A stretch of DNA of 64,000 nt from an uncultured Helicobacter sp. (lineage in GTDB: Bacteria; Campylobacterota; Campylobacteria; Campylobacterales; Helicobacteraceae): positions 1 through 64,000 of the forward strand of contig CASEHV010000033.1 of the NCBI GenBank assembly GCA_949287835.1. The letters run 5' to 3'. A model generated the notes under the pieces. The model was not told the DNA's origin. It saw only the letters and a list, made by a program, of their open reading frames with translations, and ran no database searches. Below are positions 7,311-39,187 of this stretch, piece by piece. The translations under genes and the position numbers were made by a program. Each line of letters begins with the position of its first letter. Position 1 is the stretch's first letter.

Positions 7311-8786
7311 ATGAGATTTATTATAAGCATATTATTTTTGGTGCTTTGTGCTTGTTCAAATAATACACAATATGTAAAAAAAGATTTTGATTCCTCAAAC
7401 TATACTAAACTATATAAGACGCTTTATACTAATGCCAATAAGTCATCTAATGAGACGCTTTTAATGCAAATGCAACTAGGCTACACTACGTTTGGTGTAT
7501 TTAGGCCTAGTTTTGCAATCTTTGACCTTGACACTGCAGAAAGAAAGTTTAATCAAAATCAGCAAAGCGGTCTTTTGTCGGGCATATTTAGCAATGTGGG
7601 TGCTACATTTAGCAATGATAGAGCTATTGCATATAGAGGATATATATATGAGGGGACGCTATTAAATCTCTATAAAGCTATGGCATATTCTAGTATAGGC
7701 GATGATGTTAGCGCTAGAGTGGAATTTAATAGGGCAAATGATAGGCAGAGAAGTGCGAAAGATTATTATCAAAAAGAAATAGCTAAAGCAAATCAAAAAG
7801 CAATAGAATCTGCAAATCAAAGAGATAATGCACATTATGAAAATAATGTAAAAGATTCTGATATTGAATCTATTCTTAATGAAAAATACTCCAATTTAAA
7901 AAATTTCGCCATATATAAAGACTTAATTAATCCCTCTGTATCATATATATCTGGTATATTTTTTATGATAGATAGAGATTATGCAAAGTCTGTTGATTTA
8001 CTAAAAGAAGCTTACGGCATTAGCAATGCTAGGATAATAGCTGAAGATATGCAGATATTGCAGGAACGTATAGAATATCAAGACTATCCCAAATTCACAT
8101 GGGTAGTCATAGAGGACGGAAATATAGCTAGGAAAAATGGCATTGTGATTTCCCAACCCGTATTTATAAACAGAATTAATTTCATCAATCTAGCCCTGCC
8201 AATATTAGAAAATGGTAATCCTAGATTTAATAGCTATCAAGTCAATAATGATTATGCATATAAAATAGTGAGTTTATCGCAGATATTTGCAAGTGAATTT
8301 GAAAAACAACTACCAACTATCATAACTAGGGCAATCATATCTGCCATAGCAAAATTCGTATCTACACAGATTATTGATAGCTCAGTATCTCAATTATCTG
8401 GTAATGATAGTATTGGTCTTTTATCTGGTGCTATAAGCGCCTTAACATTTAAGGCACTAACAAGCGTAGATGATAGAAGCAGTGTTGTTTTGCCAGATTC
8501 TGTATGGATTGCTAGAGTGGAAAATACAAGCGATAATGTGGCAGTTTATGGAAATGGTAGATTATTAACAAAAATGACTTTTAGCGATGAATGCAACTCG
8601 ATGAATAATAGAAAAAAAGATTTTGAGTCATTTAGGAAAATTGTAAAAGATGGTAAATTATCTGATAGAATCAGCTTTTTCAAAAAGAATGTATATGAGA
8701 ATGTTTTGTGTAGAAAAACAGATAATATCATATATGTGAGAGTCCTTAAAAACATGGCTACAAATTTTATTATTAAAGGAGATTAG
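7311..8786 (+). CDS. Lipoprotein of the COG3014 type
   Basis: A 491-residue protein with a lipoprotein signal (ISILFLVLCACS; the lipobox Cys is near residue 15). The mature part has a helical, TPR-like N-terminal half and a central low-complexity stretch (KANQKAIESANQRDN). It ends in a domain containing two small hydrophobic segments (LLSGAISALTFKALTS). The size and the pairing with the LpoB-like gene directly behind it match the COG3014 lipoproteins that neighbour LpoB-family genes in many proteobacteria. Function unknown; a role in activating or localising a penicillin-binding protein is inference from context. The next gene starts immediately after its stop codon, so the two are one transcription unit. 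Confidence 0.7.
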   Translation: MRFIISILFLVLCACSNNTQYVKKDFDSSNYTKLYKTLYTNANKSSNETLLMQMQLGYTTFGVFRPSFAIFDLDTAERKFNQNQQSGLLSGIFSNVGATFSNDRAIAYRGYIYEGTLLNLYKAMAYSSIGDDVSARVEFNRANDRQRSAKDYYQKEIAKANQKAIESANQRDNAHYENNVKDSDIESILNEKYSNLKNFAIYKDLINPSVSYISGIFFMIDRDYAKSVDLLKEAYGISNARIIAEDMQILQERIEYQDYPKFTWVVIEDGNIARKNGIVISQPVFINRINFINLALPILENGNPRFNSYQVNNDYAYKIVSLSQIFASEFEKQLPTIITRAIISAIAKFVSTQIIDSSVSQLSGNDSIGLLSGAISALTFKALTSVDDRSSVVLPDSVWIARVENTSDNVAVYGNGRLLTKMTFSDECNSMNNRKKDFESFRKIVKDGKLSDRISFFKKNVYENVLCRKTDNIIYVRVLKNMATNFIIKGD

Positions 8787-9401
8787 ATGAGAACATTAGT
8801 TAGCCTTGTTCTTGCTGGTATAGTTGGCATTAGCATTACTGCATGTAGTAATAGTGGAGTATCTTATGTAGATGAGAAAGATTCCGCACAATATACAAGT
8901 GCTGGAATAGACTATCATGATGTACAAGCGGCGGTGCAGAAAAGTATTCAAAGTCTATTGAAAAGCGAATATATCTTGATGTTGGATAAAAAAGAGGTGC
9001 TTGTCGTATCTGATGTAGTAAATGATACAATGCAGCAAGTAGATGTAGTAGGTCTTACCTCTGATATAACTAGAGCCATGAGGAAAAGCGGTAAATTTGA
9101 GGTAACCTCTGCTATTAGTGGCACTGGTGGCATAACTGATAATATGGTAGGCAGGGTTAGAAAGCTAAGAGATGATGATGAATTTAATCAATACACCACA
9201 CAGGAAAAAGGCACTCTCATTGCACCACGTCTATCTCTAGCAGGAAAAATCGTGCAGAAAAATACAAAAATAGGTAAAAAACAAAGGGTAGATTACTCAT
9301 TTTTGCTAATTCTAACAGACCTAAAGACTGGAACGGTTAAATGGGACGAAAGCACACATATCATTAAAGTAGCAAAGGGTGATGCTGTTACATGGCAGTA
9401 A
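8787..9401 (+). CDS. LpoB-like lipoprotein (penicillin-binding protein activator family)
   Basis: A 204-residue lipoprotein (lipobox ITACS near residue 20). The core resembles LpoB/YcfM: VLVVSDVVNDT near residue 72, a DITRAMRKSGKFEV segment and a C-terminal KTGTVKWDESTHIIK strand pair. In enterobacteria LpoB stimulates PBP1B from the outer membrane; whether this protein does so here is inferred. A strong ribosome binding site (AAAGGAGATTAG) sits inside the end of the preceding gene, so translation is coupled. A 156-bp convergent gap follows, with two small hairpins and no gene. Confidence 0.75.
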   Translation: MRTLVSLVLAGIVGISITACSNSGVSYVDEKDSAQYTSAGIDYHDVQAAVQKSIQSLLKSEYILMLDKKEVLVVSDVVNDTMQQVDVVGLTSDITRAMRKSGKFEVTSAISGTGGITDNMVGRVRKLRDDDEFNQYTTQEKGTLIAPRLSLAGKIVQKNTKIGKKQRVDYSFLLILTDLKTGTVKWDESTHIIKVAKGDAVTWQ

Positions 9402-32764: not shown

Positions 32765-33436
32765 ATGCGTTTGCACCCACGAGAGCTGGAAAAACTCATG
32801 CTACATTATGCAGGTGATTTGGCAAAGAGACGTAAGGAAAGAGGCATAAAGCTAAATTATGTCGAGAGCATAGCCTATATCTCTATGGAGATTATGGAGA
32901 AAGCAAGAGAGGGCAAGATGAGTGTAGCCGAGCTTATGAGCTATGGAAAGACATTGCTAAAAAGTGATGATGTCCTAAGTGGCGTGGCAAATCTCATAGA
33001 GGAAGTGCAGGTAGAGGCACATTTCCCAGATGGTGTAAAGCTTGTGAGTGTGCATAAGCCAATCCACGCACTAGATGAAAATATAGCAGGGGAGATAATC
33101 CTCTCTAGCAAGGATATAACGATAAATAGCGGCAAAGATTCCATTAGCCTAGAGGTGATTAATACCTCTGATAGACCCGTGCAGGTAGGCAGTCATTTTC
33201 ATTTCTTCGAGGTTAATAAGGCACTTGATTTTGAGCGAGATAAAGCCTATGGAAAGCGGCTAGACATTCCATCTGGCACATGTGTGCGTTTTGAGCCCGG
33301 TGAGAAAAAAAGCGTAGAGTTAATAGATTTTGGGGGAAATGAAAGGCTATATGGCTTTAATGATTTGACAAATGGGGATATTAAAAGCAATGCGGAATCT
33401 GCACTAAAAAAAGTAGAGAAATTTATCAAAGGATAG
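32765..33436 (+). CDS. ureA: Urease small subunit (fused gamma-beta), possibly UreA2 type
   Basis: A 223-residue Helicobacter-type urease subunit, in which the gamma and beta chains of other bacteria are fused. The gamma part starts [20 protein letters not shown]; the beta part has [14 protein letters not shown] and [18 protein letters not shown]. It is shorter at the C-terminus than the 238-residue H. pylori UreA and lacks the usual last 15 residues. Urease splits urea to ammonia and carbamate; in Helicobacter it counters acid. No ureI, E, F, G or H gene follows, unlike the nickel urease operon. That arrangement matches the ureA2B2 pair of H. mustelae and relatives, reported as an iron-dependent urease; assignment to that type is inference. 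Confidence 0.88.
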
Positions 33437-33438
33437 TT

Positions 33439-35148
33439 ATGAGAGTTATGAAACGAAGTGATTATGTCTCCATGTATGGACCAAGCATTGGTGATAAGGT
33501 GCGTCTAGCAGATACAAATCTCTTTGCAGAAGTAGAAAAAGACTATGCACTATATGGCGAGGAGATTAAATTTGGCGGTGGTAAGAATATCCGAGATGGT
33601 ATGGCACAAAGTGTTAGTGCAGGTAGCGAGGCGCTTGATTTAGTCATTACCAATGCTTTGATTATTGATTATAGTGGCATTATAAAGGCAGATATAGGAA
33701 TCAAAGATGGCAAGATAGCAGGCATAGGCAAGGCAGGGAATCCAGATATTCAAGATGGCATAACAAAAGGCATGGTAGTAGGCACTAGCACGGAGGTAAT
33801 AGCAGGAGAGAATCTAATCGTTACCGCAGGGGGCATTGATACACATATACATTTCATATCACCCCAGCAGGTGCATACCGCTCTCTTTAGTGGAGTAACG
33901 ACCCTCATAGGTGGCGGCATGGGACCTAGTGCTGGCACGAATGCAACTACTATAACACCAGGAGTTGAGAATCTAGCAAGTATTCTAAAAGCAGCACAAG
34001 AGTATCCCATAAACCTAGGCTTTTTTGGCAAGGGGAATACCTCAAATGAGCAGCAGTTAGAGGAGCAGATAAAAGCGGGGGCACTAGGTTTTAAGGTGCA
34101 TGAGGATTGGGGAAGCACACCCTCTGCCATTAATCACGCCCTAAATATCGCAGATAAATATGACGTTCAAGTGGCAATCCACACCGATACTCTAAATGAG
34201 GGTGGCTGCATAGAGGATACACTAAAGGCAATCAATGGACGCACGATACATACCTTTCACACAGAGGGTGCAGGCGGCGGACATGCCCCAGATATTATCA
34301 AAGCTGCTGGATATATCAATGTCCTCCCTGCCTCGACTAATCCCACCCTACCCTTTACAAAAAACACTGCCGATGAGCATTTAGACATGCTTATGGTATG
34401 TCATCATTTAGATAAGAAAATAAAAGAGGACGTAGCCTTTGCAGATTCTAGAATCCGACCTGAGACCATAGCTGCCGAAGATGTTTTGCATGATATGGGA
34501 ATCTTCTCTATCACTAGCTCAGATTCTCAAGCAATGGGGCGCGTGGGAGAAGTGATTTTACGCACATGGCAGATGGCACATAAAAATAAGGCAGAGTTCT
34601 CATCGCTAAAAGAGGAGAGCGGAGATAATGATAATTTTAGAATCAAACGTTACATAGCAAAATACACCATAAATCCAGCAATAGCACATGGCATAGATTC
34701 TTATGTAGGCTCTGTGGAGGTAGGGAAATATGCAGACTTAGTGCTATGGAAGCCTTGCTTTTTTGGCACAAAGCCTGAGATGATTCTAAAAAATGGCATG
34801 ATAGTAGCTGCAAAAATGGGGGATATTAACGCCTCCATTCCCACACCAGAGCCTGTTATATATAGAGAGATGTTTGGCGCACACGGAGATGCTAAATATA
34901 AAACTAGCGTTATCTTTACTTCTAAAGCAGCCCTTGATAACGGAATCAAGGAAAAGCTAGGATTACGCAAAGAGATGTTAGCGGTGAAAAACTGTCGCAA
35001 TGTAAGCAAAAAAGATATGAAATACAATGATGTAATAGCAAAAATAGATGTCGATAGCGAGACTTATAAAGTCTGCGTCAATGGGGAGGAAATCACCTCT
35101 AAACCTGTGGATTATGTGCCTATGGGGCAGTTGTATTTCTTGTTTTAG
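33439..35148 (+). CDS. ureB: Urease large (catalytic) subunit, possibly UreB2 type
   Basis: A 569-residue urease alpha subunit, the same length as H. pylori UreB. All metal and active-site residues are present at the H. pylori positions: His136 and His138 (THIHF), the Lys219 to be carbamylated (GFKVHEDWG), His221, His248, His274, His322 in the flap (MVCHHLD), Arg338 and Asp362. It should therefore be active if metallated. It starts 2 bp after ureA ends. Downstream come azlD, a thiE-like gene and azlC rather than accessory genes. Maturation either uses accessory proteins encoded elsewhere or none, as proposed for UreA2B2. Confidence 0.95.
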
Positions 35149-35157
35149 AGGATATGT

Positions 35158-35475
35158 ATGATTCTGATTATATGCGTTATTGCTTTGGTTACCGCTTTAA
35201 CTAGATTTTTACCATTTTTTGTTTTTTACAAAAAAGTGCCAAATTTTATATCAAATCTTGGAAAGATTCTGCCATCTAGTCTTATCGCAATGATTTTTAT
35301 ATATTCATGCAAGGATTTTATAGTAAGTATCGGAAGTGATTCTAATATGTTTGGAATCATGGGCTTTATTAGCGTTATTTTTACGCTAATAATACACCTA
35401 ATATTTAAGAATTTTATATTAAGCATTGTGTGTGGCACGATTTTTCACATAGTATTAGTAAATAATCTGTCATGA
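35158..35475 (+). CDS. azlD: AzlD-type branched-chain amino acid export subunit
   Basis: A 105-residue membrane protein with about three to four hydrophobic helices and the family signature ALTRFLPFFVF near residue 14. AzlD is the small partner of AzlC in a two-component exporter of branched-chain amino acids. Its start lies 9 bp after ureB, and its end overlaps the next gene by 4 bp (ATGA). AzlC is encoded two genes further on, so the pair is split by the thiE-like gene. Confidence 0.82.
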   Translation: MILIICVIALVTALTRFLPFFVFYKKVPNFISNLGKILPSSLIAMIFIYSCKDFIVSIGSDSNMFGIMGFISVIFTLIIHLIFKNFILSIVCGTIFHIVLVNNLS

Positions 35476-36086
35476 TTAAATCTTATCTAATCACAGATAG
35501 TAGCTATTATGACTACATGGATGGCTCTGCATATATCAGATTCAAAGAGAATTTTTTATCTGTGTATAATAAAAGTATGCCAATATCATTTGCGGCATTT
35601 AGATATGCAAATCATGCTATGCTAGATGATAATGAATTTGATGTATTAAAGACTTTCATAGAACTATGCGTTAAGTATGACATAGAACCTATTGTGAATC
35701 TTTCCTCTTTTAAGATTGAGATTCTCTCTTTCTTACATAAATATGGTATTAGAATTGGTCTGCATTTTAAAGAAAATGATATTGATATGCTAGATAGAAA
35801 TGTGATAGATAATATTGATGGAATCACATTTTATAGTGCACATAATCTTTCAAGTGCTAGATATGCTCTAAATCTCGGTATAGACTATATAACCATTAGT
35901 CCGATTTTCTATGATAAAGGGAATAAAGCACTAGGTATTGAATTTTTAAGACAAATGCCAGATGACATAAAGTGTAGATGCTTTGCACTAGGTGGAGTAA
36001 ATAGCATCAATCGCATTAATCTTGTCGCAGAAAGCGGCGTTTTTGGCTTTGCTAGTATTAGCTATTTTTCACAATATTGTCTTTAG
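35472..36086 (+). CDS. Thiamine-phosphate synthase/TenI-like protein
   Basis: A 204-residue TIM-barrel protein of the ThiE/TenI superfamily. The C-terminal half has YITISPIFYDKGNKALGIEF and ALGGVNSINRINLVAESGVF, the phosphate-binding and closing strands of the family; the N-terminal half is weakly conserved. ThiE joins the thiazole and pyrimidine moieties of thiamine, whereas TenI proteins are isomerases that share the fold. Without the pyrophosphate-binding residues being clear, either is possible. It overlaps azlD by 4 bp and lies 36 bp before azlC, an unusual place for a thiamine gene. Confidence 0.65.
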   Translation: MIKSYLITDSSYYDYMDGSAYIRFKENFLSVYNKSMPISFAAFRYANHAMLDDNEFDVLKTFIELCVKYDIEPIVNLSSFKIEILSFLHKYGIRIGLHFKENDIDMLDRNVIDNIDGITFYSAHNLSSARYALNLGIDYITISPIFYDKGNKALGIEFLRQMPDDIKCRCFALGGVNSINRINLVAESGVFGFASISYFSQYCL

Positions 36087-36122
36087 CTTTTGCGATATAA
36101 TCATTTTTATTTGGGGAAAGCA

Positions 36123-36848
36123 ATGTTTAATAATGAAATAGAATCTATTCGCAAAGCATTTCCACACACGACTCCTATTATGATAACCTACATTATTATG
36201 GGAGCTGTGTTCGGCGTTATGATGGTTAGCAACGGATATAGTCCTCTTATTAGTCTGTTGATGGCTTGTATTATCTATGCTGGAGCAATGCAATTTGTAT
36301 CTGTTTCACTACTTAGCGGAAGTGTGCCTTTGACTTCTATTATTATTCTATCACTTAGTATTAATGCAAGGCAGTTTTTTTATGCTATTGCTAGTTTGCG
36401 TAGATATGGATACAGAGAGGGTAGTGCGTTTCCTAGCTGGAAGAGATACTATCTTATGTTTAGCGTTACAGATGAGACTTTTGCTATTTTGAATCTTAGA
36501 GACAATAATAAGGAAAAAATAGATTATGAGAGTGATTTAAATATTATGTTTTATATTTCTCTACTTAACCAAATATATTGGATTATTGGCTGCGTAGCGG
36601 GAAACATACTCGGTAATTACATAGCTTTTATACAAGATATAAAAGGATTAGATTTTATAGTCATTGCTACCTTTAGTGTTCTCTTGTATGAGAATCTTAA
36701 AAATAAAAGTAACCATGTAGCAATATTTATTGGTGTGGTATGCACTATGATATGTCTTTTTATAGATAGAGAAAACTTTCTAATATATTCTCTCATTAGC
36801 ATTGTGTGTATTTTATCGATACTGCAAAAGATGAAATGGAAGAATTAA
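36123..36848 (+). CDS. azlC: AzlC-type branched-chain amino acid exporter
   Basis: A 241-residue membrane protein with AzlC features: IMGAVFGVMMVSNGY, IYAGAMQFVSVSLLSG and LSINARQFFYAIASLRRY. It works with AzlD. The ATG at 36123 is preceded by GGGGAAAGCA; a start at 36090 would require TTG and lacks a binding site. It is the last gene of the unit ureA-ureB-azlD-thiE-like-azlC, with a terminator 84 bp downstream. Confidence 0.85.
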   Translation: MFNNEIESIRKAFPHTTPIMITYIIMGAVFGVMMVSNGYSPLISLLMACIIYAGAMQFVSVSLLSGSVPLTSIIILSLSINARQFFYAIASLRRYGYREGSAFPSWKRYYLMFSVTDETFAILNLRDNNKEKIDYESDLNIMFYISLLNQIYWIIGCVAGNILGNYIAFIQDIKGLDFIVIATFSVLLYENLKNKSNHVAIFIGVVCTMICLFIDRENFLIYSLISIVCILSILQKMKWKN

Positions 36849-36955: not shown

Positions 36956-37096
36956 CCATATTTGATATTACATCGTGCAATTTTTATTTACGTTTTATTG
37001 ATTTTTAGATTTTTTTTTGATAATATGCTAGGCAAAGACTTGAAGGGATTTATTTCCACGATAGTATTTTATATTTCATTTTTAGAAGGTGCAGAA

Positions 37097-37711
37097 ATGC
37101 TAGACTATAAACAAGTGTTAGGTCAATCTGTAAAGGTTGGTCTGGTGGTTGGCTCTATATTGGTGCTAACAGCCTGCTCTTCGTCCTCTAATTCAGCTGA
37201 TAAGGATAAGGGTGGAAATCGCAATAATGGAAATGGATATTCTGAACAACATGGATATCCTGGTGACCAAGCTTTGGAGCCTTCTGGAAGGCAACTTGCT
37301 GTATATAAATCAGCAGGTTTTTCTATCGACCCTCAATTACCACAGTATGAACCTAAGATGTTGAATGAGAATGCAAGAGGTATTGCAGTAGCATACAATA
37401 TGCCATACAATTGTAAGGTGCTAGGTGAGGTTGAAGGAAAAGATAGTGCAAATGGAAAAGCAGGACCTACTTTTGAACAAATAAGAGAAGGTGCTACAAA
37501 TGACCTTAGAAATCAAGCTGCCGACCTAGTGAGGGGTGGGCATAGACTTATGCTCTCTGTAACTAAGGAGGCGATGGTTTGTCAGATAAGGGAAGGTAAA
37601 AGCAATGAATATCGTGAAGAGGATTGCACACTATGGTCTGAAATACCAGATGGTGGACAAATTCTGTCATATAGAATTCATGCTAATGTCTTTGAGTGTG
37701 GAGAGAAGTAA
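37097..37711 (+). CDS. Four-cysteine lipoprotein, first of three tandem paralogues (DUF4156/RcsF-like)
   Basis: A 204-residue lipoprotein. The signal ends in VLTACSSS (lipobox Cys near 27), a Gly/Asn-rich linker follows (about 28-75), then a conserved domain (about 85-200). The domain has YNCKVLGEVEGKDS, a REGATNDLRNQAADLV helix, TKEAMVC, the pair EDCTLWSEIP and a final SYRIHANVFEC. The four domain cysteines and the C-x-LGEV start recall DUF4156 and RcsF outer-membrane lipoproteins, in which disulfides stabilise the fold; that link is by pattern only. The ATG at 37097 follows AAGG at 7 bp; a frame extending upstream to 36962 lacks one. It is 60 to 70 percent similar by eye to the next two genes over the domain. 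Function unknown. Confidence 0.75.
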   Translation: MLDYKQVLGQSVKVGLVVGSILVLTACSSSSNSADKDKGGNRNNGNGYSEQHGYPGDQALEPSGRQLAVYKSAGFSIDPQLPQYEPKMLNENARGIAVAYNMPYNCKVLGEVEGKDSANGKAGPTFEQIREGATNDLRNQAADLVRGGHRLMLSVTKEAMVCQIREGKSNEYREEDCTLWSEIPDGGQILSYRIHANVFECGEK

Positions 37712-37739
37712 TTTATTTTATTTTAGTTGAGGTGATATT

Positions 37740-38390
37740 ATGTTGAAAGTGGATGTTAATAAGGTTTTAAAAACTGGTTTGTTTGTATGTTTGTCTTCCT
37801 GTTTGATTTCTAGTTTATCTTACGCGGACCCATATGATGATGTTGAGCAGGATGGACAATCATATTCTGGACAAATGGAGGGTGCTAATTCAGATGCTGA
37901 TTCTCAAAGAGAGATTACAGTAACAAAAGACACAGCTAATAAAAATATTTATCCTAGTGCCGCTAGAGATTTGACTCTTACTAGAGGCATTAAAGATGCT
38001 TATTATAAACTACCTAGATTAGAAAAATATACTCCTAAGCCGCTCTCAGATGAGGCTAGAAGTATAGCTATCCTTAATGGTGTGCCTTTGTTGTGTAAGT
38101 TTATGGGTGAAGTTGAAGGTATTGATGGCTCTGATGGAAGAGCCGCTCCTTCTTTTGAAGAAATTAGAGAAGGTGCACTTAATGACTTAAGAAATGCTAC
38201 TTTGGATTTGGTAGATTCTCAAAGAGATAAAGTGGTGATTACTCCCACAAAAGAGGCTATGACTTGTGAAACCATGATTGGTGAAAATCAATATGAGGAG
38301 AGCAACTGCACCTCTTGGACAAAAATACCAAACAATGGCAAAATCTTATATTACAGAATTCATGCTAATGTTTATGCGTGTGGGAGGTAA
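37740..38390 (+). CDS. Four-cysteine exported protein, second tandem paralogue, unclear anchoring
   Basis: A 216-residue paralogue of its two neighbours. The signal region could be cut by signal peptidase I after SSLSYA (near residue 29), or by the lipoprotein pathway at the Cys of CLSSC (near 21), so membrane anchoring is uncertain, unlike its clearly lipidated siblings. The conserved domain has LLCKFMGEVEGIDGSDGRAA, REGALNDLRNATLDLV, TKEAMTC, NCTSWTKIP and YRIHANVYAC, with all four domain cysteines. It starts 28 bp after the first paralogue, preceded by GTTGAGGTGATATT. Function unknown. Confidence 0.75.
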   Translation: MLKVDVNKVLKTGLFVCLSSCLISSLSYADPYDDVEQDGQSYSGQMEGANSDADSQREITVTKDTANKNIYPSAARDLTLTRGIKDAYYKLPRLEKYTPKPLSDEARSIAILNGVPLLCKFMGEVEGIDGSDGRAAPSFEEIREGALNDLRNATLDLVDSQRDKVVITPTKEAMTCETMIGENQYEESNCTSWTKIPNNGKILYYRIHANVYACGR

Positions 38391-38393
38391 TTA

Positions 38394-39119
38394 ATGTCTA
38401 GCAAAATTTTACATATCGCTAAATTTGGCGGTTTAGCTTTGAGTTTAGCTTTGCTTTTCTCTGCTTGCTCATCTAAGTCAGATATAGACAAAACTCCTGA
38501 CGAGCCAGGCACTTCTAAAGAAGTAAAGAGCAAAAGTGAAGCAAAAACTCAAAGAAATTCTAATGATGACATGTCTTACACTAATAGTAAGTCTGCAAAT
38601 AGGGATACTCATCTTCACGGAGAGAGAAATACTCATCCATCTTATTCGGATGAAAGTGATACTTATGTGAAAGATAGAGAGGTAAAATTTGATATTGGAA
38701 GAGATTTAACAATAACTAAGTCTGGACCTTATATAAGGTATCCTAGATTTCCTCAGTATGAACCAAAAATGTTAAATGAGGGAGCAAAAGGTATTGCTAT
38801 CGCGAATAGCGTTCCTTATACATGTATATTGTTGGGTGAAGTTGAGGGTAGAGATAGCTCTGATGGTAGAGCTGCTCCTTCTTTTGAAGAAATCAGAGAA
38901 GGTACACTTAATGACCTTAGGAATCATGCCACTGAGTTGGTATATAATGATAGCCGTATTCTAGTGAGTCTTACTAAGGAAGCTATGACCTGTGAGATGA
39001 TGTTGGATGATGGTAAATTCGAAGAAAGGGATTGCACATCATGGAGCGTAATTCCTAACAATGGAAGGATTCTATCATATAGAATTCATGCTAATGTTTT
39101 TGAATGTCCTGGTAAATAA
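38394..39119 (+). CDS. Four-cysteine lipoprotein, third tandem paralogue
   Basis: A 241-residue lipoprotein (LLFSACSSK, lipobox Cys near 25) with a long Ser/Lys/Asp-rich linker (about 28-110), longer than in its siblings. The domain that follows has YTCILLGEVEGRDSSDGRAA, REGTLNDLRNHATELV, TKEAMTC, DCTSWSVIP and SYRIHANVFEC. Domain sequences of the second and third copies are closest to each other (shared RAAPSFEEIREG). It starts 3 bp after the second gene and is followed by a strong terminator, so the three form one transcript. Function unknown. Confidence 0.75.
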   Translation: MSSKILHIAKFGGLALSLALLFSACSSKSDIDKTPDEPGTSKEVKSKSEAKTQRNSNDDMSYTNSKSANRDTHLHGERNTHPSYSDESDTYVKDREVKFDIGRDLTITKSGPYIRYPRFPQYEPKMLNEGAKGIAIANSVPYTCILLGEVEGRDSSDGRAAPSFEEIREGTLNDLRNHATELVYNDSRILVSLTKEAMTCEMMLDDGKFEERDCTSWSVIPNNGRILSYRIHANVFECPGK

Positions 39120-39146: not shown

Positions 39147-39187
39147 AAAGCTTGTAGTCAAAAATGACTACAAGCTTTTTCTTTTTG
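39147..39187 (+). terminator. Strong rho-independent terminator
   Basis: AAAGCTTGTAGTCA-AAAA-TGACTACAAGCTTT: perfect 14-bp arms and a 4-nt loop, then TTCTTTTT. It ends the three-paralogue operon, 27 bp after its last stop. Confidence 0.92.

Follow-up and report, generated by a model that had tools for sequence, protein, structure and literature searches.

A conserved tandem trio of DUF4156-family envelope proteins with mixed anchoring signals in Helicobacter

Three adjacent paralogous genes and their transcription signals

The window, a stretch of 64,000 nucleotides (positions 1 to 64,000 of contig CASEHV010000033.1, assembly GCA_949287835.1), belongs to an uncultured Helicobacter sp. of intestinal type. 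It contains three adjacent, co-directional open reading frames on the forward strand, here called A, B and C, which encode proteins of 204, 216 and 241 amino acids and are separated by 28 nt (A-B) and 3 nt (B-C). The genes, the parts of their products and the flanking signals are the following.

36998..37026, forward strand: promoter-like block, TTGATT, 17 nt and TGaTAATAT (extended -10), with a T-rich spacer
37097..37711, forward strand: gene A, predicted DUF4156-family lipoprotein, 204 aa; lipobox LTAC, Cys27 at 37175-37177
37274..37342, forward strand: arm of A, LEPsgRQLAVYK..., between the variable linker and the domain; identity 0.81, against 0.40 in the linker
37343..37708, forward strand: four-cysteine domain of A, strand-helix-strand-strand-strand (AlphaFold2, Foldseek)
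37740..38390, forward strand: gene B, paralogue, 216 aa; signal-peptidase-I type signal, with SYA and DP on either side of the predicted cut after 37826
37956..38024, forward strand: arm of B, SAARDLTLTR...YYKLPRLE; identity 0.76, against 0.45 in the linker
38025..38387, forward strand: four-cysteine domain of B (sequence alignment)
38394..39119, forward strand: gene C, predicted DUF4156-family lipoprotein, 241 aa; lipobox FSAC, Cys25 at 38466-38468
38676..38753, forward strand: arm of C, REVKFDIGRDLTITK...YPRFP; identity 0.83, against 0.41 in the linker
38754..39116, forward strand: four-cysteine domain of C (sequence alignment)
39147..39178, forward strand: intrinsic terminator, a 14-bp stem followed by TTCTTTTT; -19.5 kcal/mol, z -5.7

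The original prediction described three tandem paralogues with a common domain, closed by a strong terminator, and all of this holds. Protein E-values within the genome, from 1e-48 to 1e-54, rule out a chance resemblance, and gene A shares 44-50% identity with B and C. The common domain has four fixed cysteines (C1 to C4), REGxxNDLRN and (S/Y)YRIHANV in all three proteins. A fourth, more distant copy stands alone on another contig of the same genome (C34) and encodes a lipoprotein of 168 aa, with 37% identity.

The promoter-like block aligns 5’ of gene A across the whole set of 11 sequences (the window and 10 relatives), with the pattern TTGATT-17-TGaTAnnAT amid otherwise unalignable bases. 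It scores 8/12 against the consensus and is absent from the list of the consensus scan; the case for it is its conservation. The terminator lies 3’ of gene C, and its stability and the T-run after its 14 pairs match the predicted strength. Altogether, the locus is best read as a three-gene operon of DUF4156-family envelope proteins.

Assignment of the domain to DUF4156

Judged from its sequence, the domain is a DUF4156 domain, as originally suggested: by HMM the assignment is borderline, and the conserved motifs and a profile comparison with E. coli YjeI make it clear. With the Pfam model (PF13698, gathering cut-off 28.9 bits), the protein scores are 28.1 bits for A (residues 89-152), 22.9-24 for C and 19.1 for B. 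Searched as DNA, gene A reaches 29.1 bits, above the cut-off, and several A and C orthologues attain 28-29. In hhalign, a profile of 48 relatives matches YjeI, itself a DUF4156 protein, with a probability of 98.1 and an E-value of 1e-13 over 68 columns.

C1 and Asn139 are invariant in 49 sequences, while LGE, the next G and C4 are at least 90% conserved. The hallmarks of the family are thus present, namely C1 and C4 together with LGxVxG and GAxNDLxNxA (GAxNDLRNxA in the comparison with YjeI). The N-terminal lipobox usual among the aligned DUF4156 relatives occurs in A and C and is not conserved in B. Compared with YjeI and its family, the trio has an extra C2/C3 pair, a longer C-terminal part and an N-terminal arm; it is arranged in tandem, one member lacks a conserved lipid anchor, and B and C fall below the Pfam cut-off.

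Searches of NCBIfam and PHROGs gave no meaningful matches for the trio. Against PDB sequences a single protein gave weak matches, and the profile matched only haemagglutinin helices, which we consider meaningless. In the literature searched, DUF4156 is barely mentioned although E. coli has a member, and we found no Helicobacter paper on it; as the original prediction supposed, no described Helicobacter family with a known function was found for the domain. Searches for antigens of H. bilis and H. hepaticus (MAP18, P17) gave nothing usable. As far as the literature searched shows, the domain family is known but uncharacterised, and the tandem trio with its conserved mixed anchoring and its arm is undescribed.

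Predicted fold and cysteine pairing

AlphaFold2 models of A, calculated for the full-length protein and for the domain only, are confident in the domain, with pLDDT exceeding 90 along nearly all of it; it is predicted to consist of a strand, a helix and three strands. In Foldseek searches of the PDB, RcsF (2Y1B) ranks first for both models, with probabilities of 0.95 and 0.93 and TM-scores of 0.61 and 0.59 (by target length), at an E-value of 0.11 at best. Among the following matches are Francisella FvfA (5evg, 5evf), the next-best plausible one, RcsF-BamA and DUF74 (3qkb). Since these E-values are weak, the fold kinship is drawn from the consistency of the plausible matches and from published fold comparisons (PMC4092069). 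A match to the flagellar periplasmic scaffold of C. jejuni (9hmf_A, probability 0.13) was judged to be due to chance.

Among 49 relatives, 39 have C1 to C4, eight have C1 and C4 only and two are truncated reading frames. All eight with two cysteines are intact; they retain C1 and C4 and lack C2 as well as C3. Being gained or lost jointly, they imply that the disulfides would pair as C1-C4 and C2-C3. This would differ from RcsF, whose disulfides Cys74-Cys118 and Cys109-Cys124 are non-consecutive, 1-3 and 2-4 (PMC9907809).

The trio resembles RcsF in predicted fold, in having four cysteines and in the LGEVxG motif, and A and C also in a lipid anchor and a flexible linker. Besides the implied cysteine pairing, the differences are the three paralogues, the lack of significant sequence similarity (hhalign of the relatives’ profile with RcsF: probability 0.7, E 0.084) and IgaA (PF07095), which was not found in the 99.5%-complete genome with a positive E. 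coli control. Signalling through the Rcs phosphorelay is therefore unlikely. The likeness to RcsF first suggested from sequence thus survives for the predicted fold, and not for sequence, implied cysteine pairing or signalling partner.

FvfA (FTT0924) is likened to the trio by structure only and is, to our knowledge, a single gene, unlike the trio. Published work reports that the stability of peptidoglycan requires it (PMC9877522, PMC6587636). The YbjQ and DUF74 (UPF0145) proteins, also compared by fold only, have a related fold without the small first strand and helix of the RcsF group, and form pentamers (PMC4092069).

Anchoring signals

All 12 orthologues of A and all 12 of C that were compared keep the lipobox cysteine, and both proteins are accordingly predicted to be lipoproteins. 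The lipobox-like Cys21 of B (37800-37802) is not conserved: the position is a cysteine in the window, in the H. bilis/trogontum group and in two MAGs, and L, L, F, F or Y in H. aurati, H. muridarum, H. didelphidarum, H. saguini and an uncultured species. The A-x-A site for signal peptidase I is kept in B of all species compared. Given this invariant site and the five species without the cysteine, B is most likely a soluble periplasmic protein. It is thus not a lipoprotein in at least those five species and probably is one in none, the window’s own B being formally readable either way.

Two lipidated proteins and an ambiguous one had been predicted. The first part stands, and B is better described as most probably a substrate of signal peptidase I. 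The mixed anchoring itself is confirmed and is conserved across the genus.

Distribution and history of the trio

Of the 14 genomes of the genus, 13 carry the three genes side by side in an unchanged order, including those of H. bilis, H. trogontum, H. muridarum, H. aurati, H. saguini and H. didelphidarum; the sole exception is a fragmented genome, 86% complete, with one partial match. None of 107 other genomes of the family has it, and 13 of these have a single match. Relatives are rare and patchy both in an order-wide profile search (13/399 genomes) and in a phylum-wide Pfam search (28/298), and elsewhere in the order some genomes from other families carry single copies as well. As for the original suggestion that copies elsewhere might reveal a common dispersed family, lone relatives do exist, but the tandem trio is confined to the genus.

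The genes flanking the trio differ among most lineages (neighbours read from open reading frames are sucCD, hemB, plsY or rarA), which marks it as a self-contained unit. In the tree, the A sequences make up one supported group and the B sequences another, and C does not resolve as a single clade beside B. The best explanation is that two duplications before the genus diversified gave rise to the trio.

Several copies are possibly decaying: two relatives in other genera are cut short after C2 (L043 1468-1827, L044 1462-1803), and copies in genomes G011 and G060 have two and one in-frame stops, respectively. Within the genus, genome G006 has a classic two-cysteine DUF4156 gene (L113 6055-6444) beside the trio and a four-cysteine single copy.

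Linkers, arms and selection

Between linker and domain, each of the three proteins has an arm of 23-26 residues. Mean pairwise identity across species is 0.76-0.83 in the arms, 0.40-0.45 in the linkers and 0.84-0.90 in the domains. By alignment, the arm is absent from single-copy relatives. The AlphaFold2 model of A shows a disordered long linker and an arm of low confidence, not confidently folded in the monomer. The linker of C (window 38469-38675) has 69 aa here, compared with roughly 20-30 aa in relatives.

The dN/dS ratio is 0.02-0.10 in A, B and C, as obtained by a simple counting method; among the wider pairs, the synonymous sites are in part saturated.

A possible envelope complex and its alternatives

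From the anatomy and conservation observed, we infer a complex and its function. That A, B and C are a co-expressed set of a lipoprotein, a soluble protein and a second lipoprotein, forming a heteromeric complex that maintains or monitors the envelope, has, in our estimate, an even chance of being right. Such a device is the best fit to the co-retention of the genes, the one promoter-like block, the arm common to the three and the way in which their differing anchors are conserved. The terminator, the low dN/dS, the plausible fold matches and the pentamers formed by the related YbjQ and DUF74 proteins also speak for it; the weak Foldseek E-values and the failure of group C to resolve as one clade speak against it. 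A and C would be anchored in the outer membrane, if sorting follows general rules, and their linkers would hold the domains off the membrane, with B free in the periplasm. The arms may join the three proteins or attach all of them to a common partner, such as a beta-barrel. The assembly would be comparable in position to RcsF, and would not feed the Rcs phosphorelay.

A role in envelope maintenance or sensing is suggested by proteins with a similar fold: damage to the envelope is sensed by RcsF (PMC9907809), and FTT0924/FvfA is reportedly required for stable peptidoglycan. The original notion of a sensor or scaffold set is plausible. In its full form, the proposal is a genus-specific envelope complex in which three RcsF-fold paralogues transcribed together, two with a lipid anchor and one soluble, would be held together by their arms and serve outer-membrane and periplasm maintenance or stress sensing without IgaA and hence without Rcs; it is tentative, with a probability of roughly 0.35.

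Tandem paralogues can stay together by dosage or simple history, and the arm could serve separate roles in each protein. A, B and C may be DUF4156 envelope proteins that act independently, in roles that overlap or depend on conditions, kept adjacent for co-regulation or dosage and forming no complex, an account that we regard as possible though doubtful. Tandem duplication would explain the adjacency, and single DUF4156 copies do exist alone elsewhere, as does the fourth, lone copy in this very genome; however, 13 of 14 genomes keep all three genes in order even though the neighbourhood changes, the arm is shared within the trio only, and the anchoring difference is conserved.

A strict RcsF-type stress sensor, in which a disulfide-dependent lipoprotein is threaded through beta-barrels and signals, with B as a soluble relay, to a phosphorelay in the inner membrane, would agree with the fold matches to RcsF and the RcsF-BamA complex, with the common LGEVxG motif and with the long disordered linker. 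It is nevertheless disfavoured, and in our view improbable, as the genome search found no IgaA, the sequences do not match significantly and the cysteines imply another pairing. Variable surface antigens or host-binding lipoproteins seem highly improbable: these are lipoproteins of host-associated bacteria and their linkers evolve fast, but the domain is nearly frozen, with 84-90% mean identity across species, and the dN/dS values are the opposite of antigenic diversification.

A strictly retained trio with conserved mixed anchoring offers a tractable way into the question of what proteins with the RcsF fold do outside Rcs, and could expose a route of envelope maintenance or sensing in enterohepatic Helicobacter.

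Other genes in the window

Upstream of the trio, ureA-ureB (window 32765-35148) have no accessory genes nearby. A UreD-family gene and apparent UreF/UreG-like reading frames lie on another contig (C22, L117), so the urease locus is split; a single copy of ureB was found in the genome search. Between ureB and the trio (35158-36848) lies an azlD-azlC pair, azlD first, that is interrupted by a gene resembling thiamine-phosphate synthase. At 7311-9401, a 491-aa lipoprotein-like reading frame is followed by an LpoB-family gene (PF13036), a pair that we presume may be like the C. jejuni cj0089-cj0091 lipoprotein operon.
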